Origin: Gemmatimonadaceae bacterium | GTDB taxonomy: Bacteria; Gemmatimonadota; Gemmatimonadetes; Gemmatimonadales; Gemmatimonadaceae | Assembly: GCA_025358925.1 (NCBI GenBank) | Contig: JANYHT010000018.1 | Coordinates: forward strand, 1 to 47,545 | Direction of reading: 5' to 3' | Length of the DNA stretch: 47,545 nucleotides | Part shown: in pieces, positions 30,464 to 37,597 of the stretch | How the letters are laid out: each line of letters begins with the position of its first letter | How positions within the stretch are numbered: position 1 is the stretch's first letter | Program-made: the position numbers and the translations under genes | Notes under the pieces: generated by a model | What the model was told of the DNA's origin: nothing | Seen by the model: only the letters and a program-made list of their open reading frames with translations | Databases searched by the model: none

Positions 30464-30484
30464 ATTCCCCTAATCCCTATCCCC
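30464..30484 (-). repeat. GGGATTA-type repeat supplying the stop codon of the DUF6702-like gene
   Basis: On the minus strand the gene end reads ATC-GGG-GGA-TAG-GGATTAGGGG. The TAG is the stop and the repeat continues past it, as in msrA. Confidence 0.55.
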
Positions 30485-30998
30485 CGATCACCGCCGGTGC
30501 ACTACCCTTGGTAAATAACATCGTCTTTCGTGCGCCCTTGTTCTCCACCTGCACAATATTGACCTGATCTGTATGCAACTCCGTCAGCATCTGATTCCGC
30601 ACTTTGGCGCCACGCGCACTATTTGGTAGCACCACGCGAAAACAAATCCAGTACAATTCCTTGTCACGCCGCACGCCGCATGGCTGGAGCACGATTGGCA
30701 TGCCTGCAGCATTGGCCACTGTGAATTGTGCGCCGATGTAGCGCTGCACATCCGCGTCGAGCGCCGACGAATCTTTTGGTGGCTTCTTCCCGACGAATCG
30801 CGCCACGACCGTCGAAAAGTCATCCGCAAATGCACGCACACTAAACGTCGCGCCACTCGCATCCGGCGTGATCACCGTCAACGTGGTGTGAATCGGATGT
30901 GCCTGTGCAACACTCGCGGAGACCGCGACACCAACCAGCGCGCGTCGCAAAATCCGCCGCACCGAACGCACCACCGTGCGCGTCACAAGCCGTGTCAT
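30477..30998 (-). CDS. Exported DUF6702-like protein
   Basis: The 173-residue product starts at ATG 30998 after a strong GAGGTGAGG site. A signal peptide (RRALVGVAVSASVAQA) is followed by AHPIHTTLTVITPD, a start typical of DUF6702 proteins, which are small and periplasmic. The body is a predicted beta-sandwich with two conserved-looking segments (IGAQFTVANAAGMPIVLQPCG and ELYWICFRVVLP). It is the last gene of a minus-strand run and starts eight bases after the HupE/UreJ-like gene. The function is unknown in the family. Co-occurrence with HupE/UreJ-like membrane proteins suggests a joint envelope role. Confidence 0.7.
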   Translation of the reverse strand: MTRLVTRTVVRSVRRILRRALVGVAVSASVAQAHPIHTTLTVITPDASGATFSVRAFADDFSTVVARFVGKKPPKDSSALDADVQRYIGAQFTVANAAGMPIVLQPCGVRRDKELYWICFRVVLPNSARGAKVRNQMLTELHTDQVNIVQVENKGARKTMLFTKGSAPAVIGG

Positions 30999-31006
30999 GA
31001 ATCGCC

Positions 31007-31612
31007 TCACCTCGGAAACCGCTCCCACGCCCAGCCGGTCGCGACAACTGCGATCAATCCCGACACGCCCACCAATCGCATCTGAAACGCACTCGGACCG
31101 CCGACGCGACGCGGCAGCAACTGCAGCGCGCGATCCACAATCCAAAAGCACACCGCCGCACCACACAGCACCACGATCTGCCCGAGCTCAATACCGATAT
31201 TGAAGCCCAGCAGCGGCACCGCAATTTGCGCCACGAACAAACTCTTGAGATATCCCGCGAAGCCAGCGCCGTGCACCAGCCCGAACGCACCCGCAAAAAT
31301 TGGGCGATGTCGTGCGCCTGGCCCTTCTGCGGCGCGCTCGCGCAGAATCAAATTCTCGACGCCGGTCGCAACAATCGTGACCGGAATAAGAAACTCCACG
31401 AGTTTCGTCGGCAGTACCAAAATGTCGGTCACCGCCAACGCCAACGTAATAGAATGTCCGACGGTAAACGCGCTGATGACCCACATCGCCGCACGCCAAT
31501 CGCGACCGCGATAGATGGCGGCAAGCACGAGCAGAAACAGAATGTGATCCGCCGCATCGATCGCGACGATGTGATGAAATCCGACTTGCAGAAACGCCCA
31601 CATCTCCGACAC
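31007..31612 (-). CDS. HupE/UreJ-family membrane protein
   Basis: The 201-residue protein has about six membrane helices. It shows the family core: GFHHIVAIDAADHILFLLVLAAIY at the start, FTVGHSITLALAV in the middle, and FGLVHGAGFAGYL with NIGIELGQIVVL further on. The repeated His/Asp in helices (GFHH, DAADH, VGHS, VHGAGF) are candidate metal ligands. HupE and UreJ proteins are thought to be nickel or cobalt permeases linked to hydrogenase and urease. No such enzymes are here, so the cargo is open. GTG 31612 lies three bases after the stop of the TPR gene, with GGAGA inside that gene's end. It is clearly in one operon. Confidence 0.85.
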   Translation of the reverse strand: MSEMWAFLQVGFHHIVAIDAADHILFLLVLAAIYRGRDWRAAMWVISAFTVGHSITLALAVTDILVLPTKLVEFLIPVTIVATGVENLILRERAAEGPGARHRPIFAGAFGLVHGAGFAGYLKSLFVAQIAVPLLGFNIGIELGQIVVLCGAAVCFWIVDRALQLLPRRVGGPSAFQMRLVGVSGLIAVVATGWAWERFPR

Positions 31613-31615
31613 GAC

Positions 31616-32884
31616 TTAATTCTCCACCGCGCGTGCAGTTGCGCTGGCTATCAATGGTTGACCGGTAGCCGTCGCAATGGCCGCCGCATGGCGATCCAAC
31701 AGCGGATCAGGCGTGTGCAATTTCAACGCTTCACGCATCATCGCCATCGCCTCAGTGTTGCGACCCGACTTGTACAGCGCCCACGCCACCAGATCGTAGC
31801 CATAAATATCCTTGCGATCGACGAGTTCTTCCTGCGCCTTTCGCAACACGTCGCTCACGCGTAGTCCGTGGTCGAGTAGATACAAACTCCACGCGCGGTG
31901 AAACGGACCTGGTTGCGCAGTAACGGCCACTTCTAACGTATGAAAATACTCAGTGCTCTTCGCGGTATCGCCCAGCGCCGCGTACGCGTCGCCCACCAGT
32001 CCGAGCGTGCCGGGATCGAGTTGCATACCGATAGCGCGCTCGCCCCAGAGAATCACGTTCTTCTGGTCGCCACGACTAGCGGCTAAGCGCGCCATCGCAG
32101 CCTGCAGACGTGGATCATCCGGCTCGATGGCTACACCCGCACGATACGCGTCCTCGGCGGCACGTAAATGACCAGCGCGTAGTTCCAAGTCCCCCACACG
32201 CATGTTAAACCACGCTTTTGTTTCGTTGGCCACATCACGACGGGACATTGCGTCGTCCCGCGCCGCCGCCAACATGCGCCGTGCTTCGCGAATGTGTCCA
32301 TTCAGTTCCATCCATCGCGCCAAGCGCGGCGCGGTCGACAAACTGGCACGTTCACTCCACGCCGAATCGAACATCGACTGCGTCATTGCGTAATCACCCA
32401 GCTCCATCGACACTTCGCCAAGCAAAGATCGATACTGCGGAATATCTGGCTCGCGCTTCACCAGCGAAACGGCTTCATCACGCGCTTCGGTAAACCGATG
32501 TTGTGCCAATAGCACCGACACCAAGGTGACCGTCGTCGATGCATTCCGGTTCGTACGCTTGCCCATCGAACGACGAGCGTACGCCTCGGCCTGCAAATAG
32601 TCATCCCATGTCCCGCCTTCACGAGCGCGCTGCGCATGGAGCGCCGCCAATTGACCGAGCACTAACGCACTTGTTGGATCTGCTGCTAAGGCTTGGTTCC
32701 AGACACGGATTTGCGTATCGCGATCGGCTGCATCGGTAAACCCTGGTTCGCGACGCGCGCCCACCGCACCAACACTCGCGGGCGCCGCAAGGCGCGACAC
32801 CCACGAGGTGCGGGCGAGTGCCACGCCGCCGACAGCCACTGCAACGGCAACGACTCCGACGGTGAGGATCGCCCGGCGTTGCAT
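31616..32884 (-). CDS. Membrane-anchored TPR protein
   Basis: The 422-residue protein has an N-terminal signal anchor (AILTVGVVAVAVAVGGVAL) and TPR-type helical pairs from about residue 60 to 400. Examples are NQALAADPTSALVLGQLAALHAQ, AEDAYRAGVAIEPDDPRLQ, GTLGLVGDAYAALGDTAKSTEYF and DLVAWALYKSGRNTEAMAMM. It probably acts as a scaffold or partner-binding protein on the periplasmic side. Its ATG overlaps the last base of the upstream DUF4331-like gene's TAA (TAATG), so translation is coupled. It sits between the split DUF4331 genes and HupE/UreJ, an arrangement that I believe recurs in other phyla. Confidence 0.85.
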   Translation of the reverse strand: MQRRAILTVGVVAVAVAVGGVALARTSWVSRLAAPASVGAVGARREPGFTDAADRDTQIRVWNQALAADPTSALVLGQLAALHAQRAREGGTWDDYLQAEAYARRSMGKRTNRNASTTVTLVSVLLAQHRFTEARDEAVSLVKREPDIPQYRSLLGEVSMELGDYAMTQSMFDSAWSERASLSTAPRLARWMELNGHIREARRMLAAARDDAMSRRDVANETKAWFNMRVGDLELRAGHLRAAEDAYRAGVAIEPDDPRLQAAMARLAASRGDQKNVILWGERAIGMQLDPGTLGLVGDAYAALGDTAKSTEYFHTLEVAVTAQPGPFHRAWSLYLLDHGLRVSDVLRKAQEELVDRKDIYGYDLVAWALYKSGRNTEAMAMMREALKLHTPDPLLDRHAAAIATATGQPLIASATARAVEN

Positions 32885-33438
32885 TATCGCGCCGCTTCCA
32901 AATACGGGAACGTCGTCGAGTACGTGCGGACGCTGGTGCTGATGTTGTCCGACGTCAAACCCGGCAGCACCGTCGCGGCAGGATCCAGCAAGTTACCGAA
33001 AATTGCAGTCAGGCCGGCATCAACCACATCGTCCTTCAAATTGCGACCGCCGTAGCCGTTGGCAAGTGCCCAGCTCAACCATCCCGACGTTGAACCAGCA
33101 CGGTTCGGATACACGAGCAACATGTCGGGCACGAGCACTGCCGCGAGCGTGTTGGCGATCGTCGCGCCACGGTTGAACTGGTTGGTGAACGCCTTGATCT
33201 TGCCGCCAAAATCGTTGGCCACGTCAGTGGCAGGCGCGGTGGAGTTGTGCAACCCGTGATCGCGTTTCAGGAAGAACACTTCGCTCACCAGCGGATTGCC
33301 GAGTCGCTCGACCTGGCTGTAAATACGCGTGGACGTCGGTGTGGTGACGGTGGCGTTGTTGTTCTTGTCCGAACACGCCGCGATGAGCGGCAACAACAGC
33401 GCGAGGCAAGCAACGCGCGGAGAAAGCGAGATACGCAT
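32884..33438 (-). CDS. Lipoprotein resembling the C-terminal half of DUF4331
   Basis: The 184-residue product starts at ATG 33438 after a GGAG site. It has a lipoprotein signal (LALLLPLIAACSDKNN, Cys near residue 22). The segment RLGNPLVSEVFFLKRDHGLHN corresponds to the GNPLVNEV-type motif found in the second half of full-length DUF4331 proteins. LVYPNRAGSTSGWLSWALANGYGGRNLKDDVVDA and LPGLTSDNISTS are further matches to that end. The first half is encoded by the gene just upstream. So one family domain is split over two proteins, with this half lipid-anchored. The function is unknown. Confidence 0.7.
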   Translation of the reverse strand: MRISLSPRVACLALLLPLIAACSDKNNNATVTTPTSTRIYSQVERLGNPLVSEVFFLKRDHGLHNSTAPATDVANDFGGKIKAFTNQFNRGATIANTLAAVLVPDMLLVYPNRAGSTSGWLSWALANGYGGRNLKDDVVDAGLTAIFGNLLDPAATVLPGLTSDNISTSVRTYSTTFPYLEAAR

Positions 33439-33479
33439 GGTAGAGACTCCGAAAGTGTGATTGAGTAGTGTCGTGCGCA

Positions 33480-34202
33480 TCAACGGCTGATCGTGCCCCA
33501 CACGCCAATCTTGGCGGCGGCGTCAGTGCTGCTCAGGAGCTGATTCTTCGGCAATTCGATCACGATTGAAAGCGCGTTGAACGGCTTCAAGAAGTCGATG
33601 CCAGGATTACGAAACGCCATCGCGGTGGGTGTCAGCGGCGTTGACAACGGACCGGTAGACGGACGACGATCTGGCAGAATGTTGAAGAACTGCTCGAGAT
33701 CAATCACGAACGGATCAGCCTTCAATCCAGTAAACGTTTGCGTGCCCGTGGCCGAACCCGCGATGCTACCGACGTTGCCAGTCACCACGGTTCCGGCGGT
33801 CACCAACGTGGCCTTCGTGCCAGTCATCGCCGGCGCAACGGGACCACGAATCGTGTACTTCTGATTCGCGCCGGTGCCTTCGTCGAATGTGATTTGAAAT
33901 ACAAGATCTTCGACGGCGTCGCCAGTGTTATCAACCTTGATCTGATACAAAAGGTTTGGATCGAATGATGCCGTCTGACCAGCGATCGGACTCGACGTCG
34001 TCATCACGAGCGCGATGCGATCGGCGGACGAACCCGGGAATGCATAGACGTCGTTGATGTCCATGCGCGGGTTCAATTCAGTTTCTGGTGTGTCTTGATG
34101 GTCCGAAGCGAGTACACGCTGCGTTACCACTATCGTGGCGACAGCAGCCACCGCGAGCGCACCGAAGCGCAGCGAACGGCGAGTAATTGAAGGAAGCGGC
34201 AT
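33480..34202 (-). CDS. Exported DUF4331-family protein, N-terminal half
   Basis: The 240-residue protein has a signal peptide (GALAVAAVATIVVTQRVLAS). It begins with the DUF4331 hallmark SDHQDTPETELNPRMDINDVYAFPG. DPNLLYQIKVDNTGDAVEDLVFQITF and IDLEQFFNILPDRRP follow, and FNALSIVIELPKNQL with IGVWGTISR close the chain. Full DUF4331 proteins usually continue past this point with a GNPLVNEV segment, found here in the next gene. A GGAG site precedes ATG 34202. It is the first gene of the five-gene minus-strand run ending at 30477. Confidence 0.85.
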   Translation of the reverse strand: MPLPSITRRSLRFGALAVAAVATIVVTQRVLASDHQDTPETELNPRMDINDVYAFPGSSADRIALVMTTSSPIAGQTASFDPNLLYQIKVDNTGDAVEDLVFQITFDEGTGANQKYTIRGPVAPAMTGTKATLVTAGTVVTGNVGSIAGSATGTQTFTGLKADPFVIDLEQFFNILPDRRPSTGPLSTPLTPTAMAFRNPGIDFLKPFNALSIVIELPKNQLLSSTDAAAKIGVWGTISR

Positions 34203-34367: not shown

Positions 34368-34934
34368 TCAGCTTGGCATCAACACCTTGTCAACCACGAG
34401 AATCACACCGTTCGACTGATAGACGTCGTACACCGAAATGTTTGCAACGCCGCCCTTCGCATCCTTCACCTGAATGTTGCGCGCGCCGTTCATCATCACC
34501 GTCAGCACACCACCTTGTGCCGTCTTCAGCTTCGCCATGCCGCCCCCCTTCTTGATCAACGCCATCAACGCCTTGGCATCATAACGACCCGGCACGACAT
34601 GGTACGTGAGGACCGACGTCAACGTGCCCTTATTCTCCGCCTTCAGCAACGTTTCCACAGTACCGTCGGGGAGAAGCTTGAACGCGGCATTCGTCGGGGC
34701 AAACACAGTAAACGGACCTTTGCCCTTCAACGTCTCGACGAGGCCAGCGGCTTTCACCGCAGCGACGAGCGTGGTGTGATCCGCCGAGTTCACGGCATTG
34801 TCGACGATGTCCTTGTTGGCCATCATGGCCTGACCGCCAACCATCGGGTTCGGCATGGCCTGCGCGTGCGCCACCGTCGAAATACTGACCGCGAAAATCG
34901 TCGCGGCAAATACAGTAGAAAAAGAGCGCTTCAT
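34368..34934 (-). CDS. Secreted fasciclin-domain protein
   Basis: The 188-residue protein has a signal peptide ending VAHAQA. One complete fasciclin (FAS1) domain follows: IVDNAVNSADHTTLVAAVKAAGLVETLKG, the H1 motif GPFTVFAPTNAAF, LTSVLTYHVVPGRY, and the closing H2-like NISVYDVYQSNGVILVVDKVLMP. FAS1 domains mediate adhesion or ligand binding at the cell surface. A stem-loop lies just downstream, so the gene is probably a single transcription unit. It lies between the DUF4331 operon and another secreted protein, all on the minus strand. Confidence 0.93.
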   Translation of the reverse strand: MKRSFSTVFAATIFAVSISTVAHAQAMPNPMVGGQAMMANKDIVDNAVNSADHTTLVAAVKAAGLVETLKGKGPFTVFAPTNAAFKLLPDGTVETLLKAENKGTLTSVLTYHVVPGRYDAKALMALIKKGGGMAKLKTAQGGVLTVMMNGARNIQVKDAKGGVANISVYDVYQSNGVILVVDKVLMPS

Positions 34935-35964: not shown

Positions 35965-36318
35965 ATGCAGTACGCGATCTTGATCTATGACAACGAAGCG
36001 GCGCTCGACGCTGCACCCGCCGATATGATGCAGGCTTACAATCTGTACACCAAAGCGCTGATCGATGCTGGAGTCATGCGCGGAGGCCACGAATTGAAGC
36101 GCGTGAAAACTGCCACGTCCGTGCAGGTACGGAACGGCAAAGTGCACATGACGGACGGTCCATTCGCCGAAACGCGCGAACAACTCGGCGGATTGTATGT
36201 GATCGAAACGTCAAGCCTGGAAGAGGCGCTCGACTGGGCCGCCAAGTGTCCCAGCGCACAGATCGGAACCATTGAAGTTCGGCCAATTCAACAAACACCC
36301 GCGCCAGTCCCAGCGTGA
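35965..36318 (+). CDS. DGPF/YCII-related protein
   Basis: The 117-residue protein has the YCII-like dimeric alpha-beta barrel with MQYAILIYDNEAAL at the start and the hallmark MTDGPFAETREQLGGLYVIE in the middle. ATG 35965 follows GAAGGAG. The next gene, 13 bases on, is a sigma factor with a C-terminal helical extension. DGPF proteins are regularly encoded next to ECF42 sigma factors, so a regulatory partnership or shared regulon is likely. Enzyme activity is not known. Confidence 0.88.
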   Translation: MQYAILIYDNEAALDAAPADMMQAYNLYTKALIDAGVMRGGHELKRVKTATSVQVRNGKVHMTDGPFAETREQLGGLYVIETSSLEEALDWAAKCPSAQIGTIEVRPIQQTPAPVPA

Positions 36319-36331
36319 GTACAGGATCGGC

Positions 36332-37597
36332 GTGGTAAATGCCATTCTCGAGGGCATAGCGCGCCGTGAAGGCGCGCGTGTCCTCGCGTCCCTCATTCGC
36401 ACCCTCGGCGACTTCGACCTTGCGGAGGACGCGCTGCAAGATGCGTACATTCGAGCGCTGCAGCGTTGGCCCACTACGGGCGTTCCAGACCGACCTGCCG
36501 CATGGTTGCTCACCGTCGCACGGCGCGCAGCGCTCGACAAATTGCGCGCCAACCGCATGATCGGTACGCAACAGTCGGACGATGTCGCGATAAATGATGC
36601 GTTGCGTGTTGCGCCGATCGAGTACGATGACACCACGCTCGACGACCCCGTCCAACGCTCGGGCGTTGACGATGATCGCCTACGTCTCATCTTCACGTGT
36701 TGTCACCCAGCGATCGCGCCAGCAGCGCAAGCATCGCTCGCTTTGCGCACGCTGTGTGGGTTGGAAACGCGCGAAATTGCGCGCGCCTTTCTTGAGCCCG
36801 AAGCCACCACAGCGCAACGACTCGTGCGCGCGAAACAAAAAATTCGGGAGGCCGGCATTCCGTTCGCGGTACCCGATCGCGAAAAACTGGCCGAACGCAC
36901 GTCGGTCGTTCTCGGCGTGATTTATCTGGTGTTCAATGAAGGATATGCGGCAACTGAGCACGCATCGTTTGTTCGCGCCACGCTGTGCGCAGAAGCAATT
37001 CGCTTGGCACGCCTCGTTGTCGAACTCTTGCCGGACGATGGCGAAGCGCGTGGTTTGTTAGCGTTGCTGCTGCTGACCGATGCTCGTCGCGCATCGCGGC
37101 TGGACGAATGCGGAATGATCGTGCCGCTCGAACTCCAAGATCGCACAAAGTGGGACATCGCACAGCGCAACGAGGGCAGCGCGCTCGTCGCACCCGCCTT
37201 GGCGGAGGGCTCAGGTCCGTATCGCATTCAAGCGGCCATAGCGGCGCTACACACGGAGGCTGCAACCGCTGCGGACACGGATTGGTTGCAAATCGTTGCG
37301 TTATACGCGGCGCTTCTTCAGCATACGCCGAGTGCGGTAGTTGAACTGAATACGGCTGCTGCACTCGCGATGGCCATCGGCCCAGAACACGGGTTGATGT
37401 GGATGAATCGGTTGGCGAACGACGGTCAACTCAAAGGATTTCACCTGCTCCCCGCCGCGCAGGCCGACCTATTGCGTCGTCTGGAACGTTGGGCCGAAGC
37501 AGCCGATGCATATCGCGCCGCGCTGCAGCTGGTGAAAGCGCCAGCAGAGCGACGGTATTTGGAATGGCGACTGGCAGGATTAGGGCTTAGGGAATAA
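36332..37597 (+). CDS. ECF42-type RNA polymerase sigma factor with C-terminal extension
   Basis: The 421-residue protein starts at GTG 36332 with an AGGA site. Residues about 1-65 form sigma region 2 (VLASLIRTLGDFDLAEDALQDAYIRAL). Residues about 120-180 form region 4 (FTCCHPAIAPAAQASLALRTLCGLETREIARAFLEPEATTAQRLVRAKQKI). The remaining 240 residues are helical and TPR-like (FNEGYAATE, EAIRLARLVVELLPDDGEARGLLALLLL, HLLPAAQADLLRRLERWAEAADAYRAAL), characteristic of ECF42. Such factors have no anti-sigma factor, and the C-terminal extension is needed for activity. The last codons (AGLGLRE) and stop are formed by a GGATTAGGG repeat. Confidence 0.92.
   Translation: MVNAILEGIARREGARVLASLIRTLGDFDLAEDALQDAYIRALQRWPTTGVPDRPAAWLLTVARRAALDKLRANRMIGTQQSDDVAINDALRVAPIEYDDTTLDDPVQRSGVDDDRLRLIFTCCHPAIAPAAQASLALRTLCGLETREIARAFLEPEATTAQRLVRAKQKIREAGIPFAVPDREKLAERTSVVLGVIYLVFNEGYAATEHASFVRATLCAEAIRLARLVVELLPDDGEARGLLALLLLTDARRASRLDECGMIVPLELQDRTKWDIAQRNEGSALVAPALAEGSGPYRIQAAIAALHTEAATAADTDWLQIVALYAALLQHTPSAVVELNTAAALAMAIGPEHGLMWMNRLANDGQLKGFHLLPAAQADLLRRLERWAEAADAYRAALQLVKAPAERRYLEWRLAGLGLRE

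Follow-up and report, generated by a model that had tools for sequence, protein, structure and literature searches.

The DNA analysed here (the window) is a stretch of 47,545 nucleotides that makes up an entire contig (C65) of a genome comprising 72 contigs and 4.0 Mb, placed in the Gemmatimonadaceae by its relatives. Between positions 34202 and 30477, its minus strand carries five consecutive open reading frames with gaps of 41, -1, 3 and 8 bases. The first (33480-34202) encodes the N-terminal part of a DUF4331 protein, which matches positions 1-236 of the Pfam profile PF14224 (E=1e-31) and is predicted by rule to be exported by means of a signal peptide cleaved at ...RVLA|SDHQD, giving a mature protein encoded by 33483-34106. 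The C-terminal part of DUF4331 (profile positions 245-420, E=8e-14) is encoded separately (32884-33438, ATG at 33438) as a predicted lipoprotein with the rule-based lipobox LIAAC, whose lipid-attachment cysteine is encoded at 33373-33375. Overlapping this gene by one base is that of a protein with Pfam TPR matches and an N-terminal signal or anchor segment (31616-32884), which is followed after 3 bases by the gene for a membrane permease without an ectodomain (31007-31612). This permease belongs to the HupE_UreJ_2 family (PF13795, E=7e-43) and not to the classical HupE_UreJ family, PF04955. The last gene, 8 bases further on, encodes a DUF6702 protein (30477-30998, ATG at 30998; PF20420, E=3e-22), the mature form of which is predicted to start with the histidine encoded at 30897-30899 (AQA|HPIH). 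All Pfam scores exceed the curated gathering scores (111 and 52 bits against 27 for the two DUF4331 genes, 146 against 24.5 for HupE_UreJ_2, and 79 against 24 for DUF6702), and these matches, together with the coordinates, bear out the five same-strand genes and the spacing described in an earlier, sequence-only reading of this DNA. A secreted fasciclin-domain protein is encoded just upstream on the same strand (34368-34934); it was considered as an operon member and rejected, as such a gene lies near DUF4331 only in the nearest relative, L072, among the loci searched. Divergent from the operon, a YCII-domain protein and then an ECF-type sigma factor with a DUF6596 extension are encoded at 35965-37597, and these are not conserved neighbours.

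The two adjacent DUF4331 genes jointly cover the whole of the 421-position PF14224 profile, and this coverage, the signal peptide and the lipobox confirm the earlier description of a DUF4331 protein split into an exported N-terminal half and a lipoprotein C-terminal half. A Pfam search found DUF4331 in 23 of 150 Gemmatimonadota genomes, the source genome included, and in most of these the profile is broken at about positions 242-250, with a stop between the parts. Of 72 C parts encoded separately, 66 show a lipobox by a strict pattern, and two of the other six have an LLAC lipobox, which this pattern passes over. The C part keeps its own start and lipobox in Gemmatimonadota, in Armatimonadota-type genomes and in some genomes of the cyanobacterial phylum, where divergent members (L211-L213) likewise have split forms with lipoprotein C parts. 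The split is real. A tree of N domains requires four switches between the fused and the split state, of which at least three fall on well-supported branches. When two chains have repeatedly been fused or separated in evolution, this is classical evidence of joint action, and because the state of DUF4331 has switched at least three times in the tree, its halves probably work together. Furthermore, a model of an intact relative of 355 residues (L138; pTM 0.88, pLDDT 84.7) has weak matches to immunoglobulin-type sandwiches (Z up to 6.4) that extend from about residue 14 to about residue 290, a range given by its end points only, and so past the split near residue 206. Since these matches run across the split, both halves seem to build one body, which is suggestive modelling evidence for the earlier view that the two parts form a single fold. 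Among solved structures, nothing scored above Z 6.4, antibody-like sandwiches stood on top, and the PDB search returned no sequence relative of DUF4331. An internal duplication of DUF4331, in which the N and C parts would be repeats, was rejected, as hhalign found no similarity between them.

The predicted mature N part begins with Ser-Asp-His (34098-34106), an ATCUN-type NH2-X-X-His motif. Its histidine (His35) is the same in 118 of 118 aligned N parts and likewise in nine further loci. Three residues ahead of it, 111 of 114 sequences have Ala or Gly, and the residue five ahead is small or aliphatic. Signal peptidase I prefers such residues, small ones before the cleavage site and small or aliphatic ones further back, and the cleavage sites given here are rule-based predictions. 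DUF4331 members that have no signal peptide start M-SHH or M-SNH, so that removal of the methionine would again put histidine third, and the pattern agrees in members from the cyanobacterial phylum that were found through the Pfam profile alone. The third-position histidine is thus kept across two routes to the N-terminus, signal peptidase (A|SDH, A|SSH) and methionine removal (M|SHH, M|SNH). A histidine at residue 3 of a free N-terminus defines the ATCUN motif for Cu(II) and Ni(II) (PMC7701195), and the sequence with its rule-based cleavage places one there. We infer that the DUF4331 N-terminus is an ATCUN-type site that would bind copper or nickel.

The five-gene order, from the DUF4331 N and C parts through TPR and HupE to DUF6702, is the arrangement in most Gemmatimonadota loci checked. 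It is complete in 17 of them, the window counted, which supplies the conserved neighbourhood that the sequence-only reading had called for, and because the full order recurs in this way the arrangement is not chance. A wider scan of 84,980 species genomes, from which the best 80 loci were kept, adds Armatimonadota, Abditibacteriota, Cyanobacteriota and Planctomycetota. Additionally, annotated plasmids of Gamma- and Betaproteobacteria carry DUF4331, TPR and an ectodomain-bearing HupE, and those of Actinomycetota carry DUF4331-TPR. Almost every locus of sufficient length has a TPR gene next to DUF4331. The parts also occur separately: TPR-HupE-DUF6702 (L182) and HupE-DUF6702 (L183) are found without DUF4331, and HupE with a separate DUF6702 is therefore a unit of its own; conversely, DUF4331 is found without any permease, and an operon of this kind is lacking around the short cytosolic DUF4331 proteins. 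Because DUF4331 and HupE-DUF6702 each occur apart, the system is built of modules, and DUF4331 may also serve other ends. The earlier picture of a five-gene operon is incomplete for other genomes, in which a TonB receptor or an ECF/RskA pair is often part of it. Of the 12 full operons flanked on each side by at least 2.5 kb of sequence, a TonB receptor adjoins seven, an ECF sigma factor or RskA-type anti-sigma factor four, and one or the other nine; the window operon is adjoined by neither.

The permease of the window begins its HupE domain 7 bases past the TPR stop, which leaves no room for an ectodomain, and it is not an anglerase-permease fusion of the Ang-1 type, as the same chain holds no N-terminal-His capture domain. 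Five His and Asp residues in the membrane domain of HupE_UreJ_2 (H14, D22, H23, H53 and H114) are invariant in 26 sequences. The AlphaFold2 model of DUF6702 (pLDDT 93.7) shows a beta-sandwich in which helices lie between strands 2 and 3, and its best solved match is Ang-1 (9GCE; Z 11.8, rmsd 3.4, 130 of 140 residues). Model residues 1-140 align with chain residues 1-156, residue 1 standing first in both, and unrelated structures appear from Z 6.1. The modelled protein thus has the fold of an Ang-1-like capture domain with His1 at its start. By sequence, DUF6702 has no significant homology to HupE ectodomains, and the likeness lies in the fold alone. Residues H1, H4, D27, D111 and N114 are invariant in the DUF6702 proteins of these loci.

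The distribution of DUF6702 complements that of the HupE ectodomain. Where no more than about 130 bases separate the TPR stop from the HupE domain, and HupE lacks an ectodomain, 29 of 29 judgeable loci have a DUF6702 gene next, and two more loci end before it; where HupE bears one (L054, L065, L067, L106, L210, L212 and L213), a DUF6702 gene is present in none of seven. The associated p value of 1e-7 is overstated, since the loci are all related and some are near copies. Because a separate DUF6702 and a HupE ectodomain exclude each other, DUF6702 most likely serves HupE in trans as a detached, ectodomain-like partner. DUF6702, listed earlier simply as one more component of the operon, is indeed present, but it resembles a missing piece of the permease rather than an extra part.

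The permease itself can be exchanged. In cyanobacteria with the operon, as well as in L105 and L128, a NicO protein fills the slot after TPR, and the slot-filling NicO proteins that were read possess an ectodomain of their own, which begins A|HPLGNFT or A|HPMGNFS. Elsewhere in the cyanobacterial phylum, HupE (L212, L213) and NicO (L216-L218) proteins share one ectodomain, starting HWADL or HWSDL, with 40% identity from His1 (E=2e-35), and their membrane parts belong to different Pfam families. In Rhizobium (L063), a cytosolic DUF4331 adjoins a full NicO transporter. The constant theme of these loci, as judged from their sequences, is a putative metal permease with an N-terminal-His capture domain, DUF4331 and a TPR protein.

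Several known systems resemble parts of this arrangement. The anglerase-HupE/UreJ-2 proteins (Ang-1, Ang-2) have in common with the window the permease family and, by fold, an N-terminal-His capture domain that has been proposed to fish for metal and feed the permease (Franco Cairo et al. 2025, PMC12537917). Their capture domain is fused to the permease, whereas the window has a separate DUF6702 gene, the DUF4331 halves and a TPR protein. Ang-1, a HupE/UreJ-2 ectodomain, binds Cu at 74 nM and Ni at 220 nM, and PaDUF6702 binds Ni at 5.6 pM, Co at 3.6 nM and Cu at 3.3 nM (PMC12537917). PaDUF6702 belongs to the same Pfam family as the window protein and likewise has an N-terminal histidine and a beta-sandwich, but the neighbours reported there are M1 peptidase and HAD genes and not HupE, beside which the window DUF6702 lies. 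The window protein retains His1 and has Phe at residue 28 and Val at residue 32, where PaDUF6702 has His1, His28 and His32, as compared by residue number. The report notes a loose structural likeness of DUF6702 and Ang-1, and its main text mentions no DUF6702 beside HupE, no DUF4331, no TPR protein and no Gemmatimonadota (PMC12537917). The next best fold matches of DUF6702 are the periplasmic zinc-binding proteins ZrgA and PA4063 (Z 9.2-10.5; 8F1B, 8EZW, 7BGO, 7AMX), which are zinc proteins with an identity to DUF6702 of only about 10%. Finally, transporters of the NicO and HoxN/NixA nickel/cobalt kind hold the equivalent operon slot in cyanobacteria and in some Armatimonadota-type genomes, and they belong to a Pfam family other than HupE_UreJ_2. 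The earlier statement that neither DUF4331 nor DUF6702 has a function is thus out of date for DUF6702, reported in 2025 as an N-terminal-His metal sequesterase (PMC12537917), and stands for DUF4331, on which our literature search found no paper. DUF4331 is the new element of an otherwise known capture-domain-plus-permease kind.

The third-position histidine of DUF4331, the Ang-1-like fold of DUF6702, its complementarity with the HupE ectodomain, the exchange of HupE for NicO and the metal binding measured for another DUF6702 lend good support to a putative role in metal handling. We consider it reasonably probable that the operon encodes a cell-envelope system in which a divalent transition metal is captured and delivered to an inner-membrane permease, most likely for nickel or cobalt uptake, with copper a possible substrate. 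In relatives that have one, a TonB receptor would bring the metal or a chelate across the outer membrane. The soluble Ser-Asp-His half and the lipid-anchored half of DUF4331 would then join, as their fold and the gene fusions suggest, into a body that may hold the metal, with the TPR protein presumably docking the parts. DUF6702 would take over the metal through its N-terminal histidine as the detached capture domain of HupE acting in trans, a transfer proposed because of the similar fold and the gene complementarity, and HupE, judged by its family, would move the metal to the cytoplasm. More tentatively, and with confidence somewhat short of even, we propose that this is an undescribed, modular envelope system of several phyla, in which DUF4331 would be an ATCUN metal carrier, the TPR protein a scaffold, HupE_UreJ_2 and NicO interchangeable permeases, and the capture domain either fused or supplied in trans as DUF6702. 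The earlier proposal of one machine is retained in so far as the unit is conserved, metal-related and composed of two exported halves, a TPR protein and a permease, but the suggested redox ligand found no support; likewise, HupE stands as the membrane transport part, for which, as a permease, the term channel was loose.

HupE_UreJ_2 is present in 20 of 23 Gemmatimonadota genomes with DUF4331, against 71 of 127 others (p=0.005, without correction for kinship). NiFe hydrogenase is no commoner in the DUF4331 genomes of this phylum (5 of 23) than in the others (39 of 127; p=0.46), and hardly any of the Gemmatimonadota genomes searched has a true urease; a dedicated nickel supply to urease or hydrogenase in Gemmatimonadota is not supported. 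No riboswitch of known metal specificity was found near the operon in the window and 22 loci.

The same parts could instead serve metal efflux or envelope detoxification, with the exported proteins buffering excess nickel, cobalt or copper and the permease expelling it. The cyanobacterial NicO proteins are indeed nearest to the nickel/cobalt efflux subfamily PRK10019, though below its cut-off, regulation by an ECF/RskA pair fits a stress response, and L036, a second DUF4331 locus, lies 3' of an E1-E2 P-type ATPase gene. We nevertheless judge efflux rather unlikely, given that the TonB receptors adjoining 7 of 12 operons import, that capture domains facing the periplasm fit uptake, and that Rhizobium HupE is cited as a nickel transporter required for hydrogenase activity (both PMC12537917). 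The receptors raise a further alternative, in which an organic or chelated cofactor (PQQ-like or a metallophore ligand) would be taken up and free metal would be secondary. Four adjoining receptors score best against PqqU, at 319-381 bits far below the cut-off of 1200, and one matches a PQQ transporter structure; but those of L094, L095 and L082 do not prefer PqqU, metal-transporter families occupy the permease slot, and neither the window nor the cyanobacterial operons have a receptor, which together make cofactor uptake improbable.

Two other explanations concern DUF4331 itself. It might be an enzyme or adhesion module in which the third-position histidine is catalytic or structural and the metal proteins are mere neighbours, in line with its occurrence without a permease, with TPR-HupE-DUF6702 lacking it in L182, and with several other residues that are as conserved as this histidine. 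Against such a role stands a histidine fixed at processed position 3 in secreted and cytosolic members alike, and we hold it to be very unlikely. Lastly, split genes can arise through frameshift, assembly error or decay, and a Nostoc DUF4331 gene (L120, 5848-7122) is visibly broken within its N part, which sets it apart from the genuinely split genes. That the split observed here has such an origin is exceedingly improbable, however, in view of a C part with its own start and lipobox across several phyla and of invariant residues in both halves.

What began as a guess about metal handling has become a specific model that can be tested. If it is true, DUF4331 gains a function that can be checked with one protein and one point mutation, and DUF6702 sequesterases, anglerase domains and NicO/HupE permeases unite as one system with swappable parts, hinting at how soil Gemmatimonadota and cyanobacteria get or control nickel, cobalt or copper. 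The divided DUF4331 would also be a natural case of a seemingly single fold shared between a soluble and a lipid-anchored chain.

Several further loci were observed. On Rhodobacterales plasmids (L064 and L069), an intact DUF4331 adjoins type II secretion genes and not metal genes. The sequence-only reading had noted no urease or hydrogenase in the window, but contig C53 of the source genome encodes a NiFe-hydrogenase large-subunit homologue of a weaker-matching group (200656-202209), about 45 kb from a second split DUF4331N-DUF4331C-TPR locus (L061, about 245-248 kb). This second locus stands without HupE or DUF6702, and its N domain falls on another branch of the tree than the window copy.
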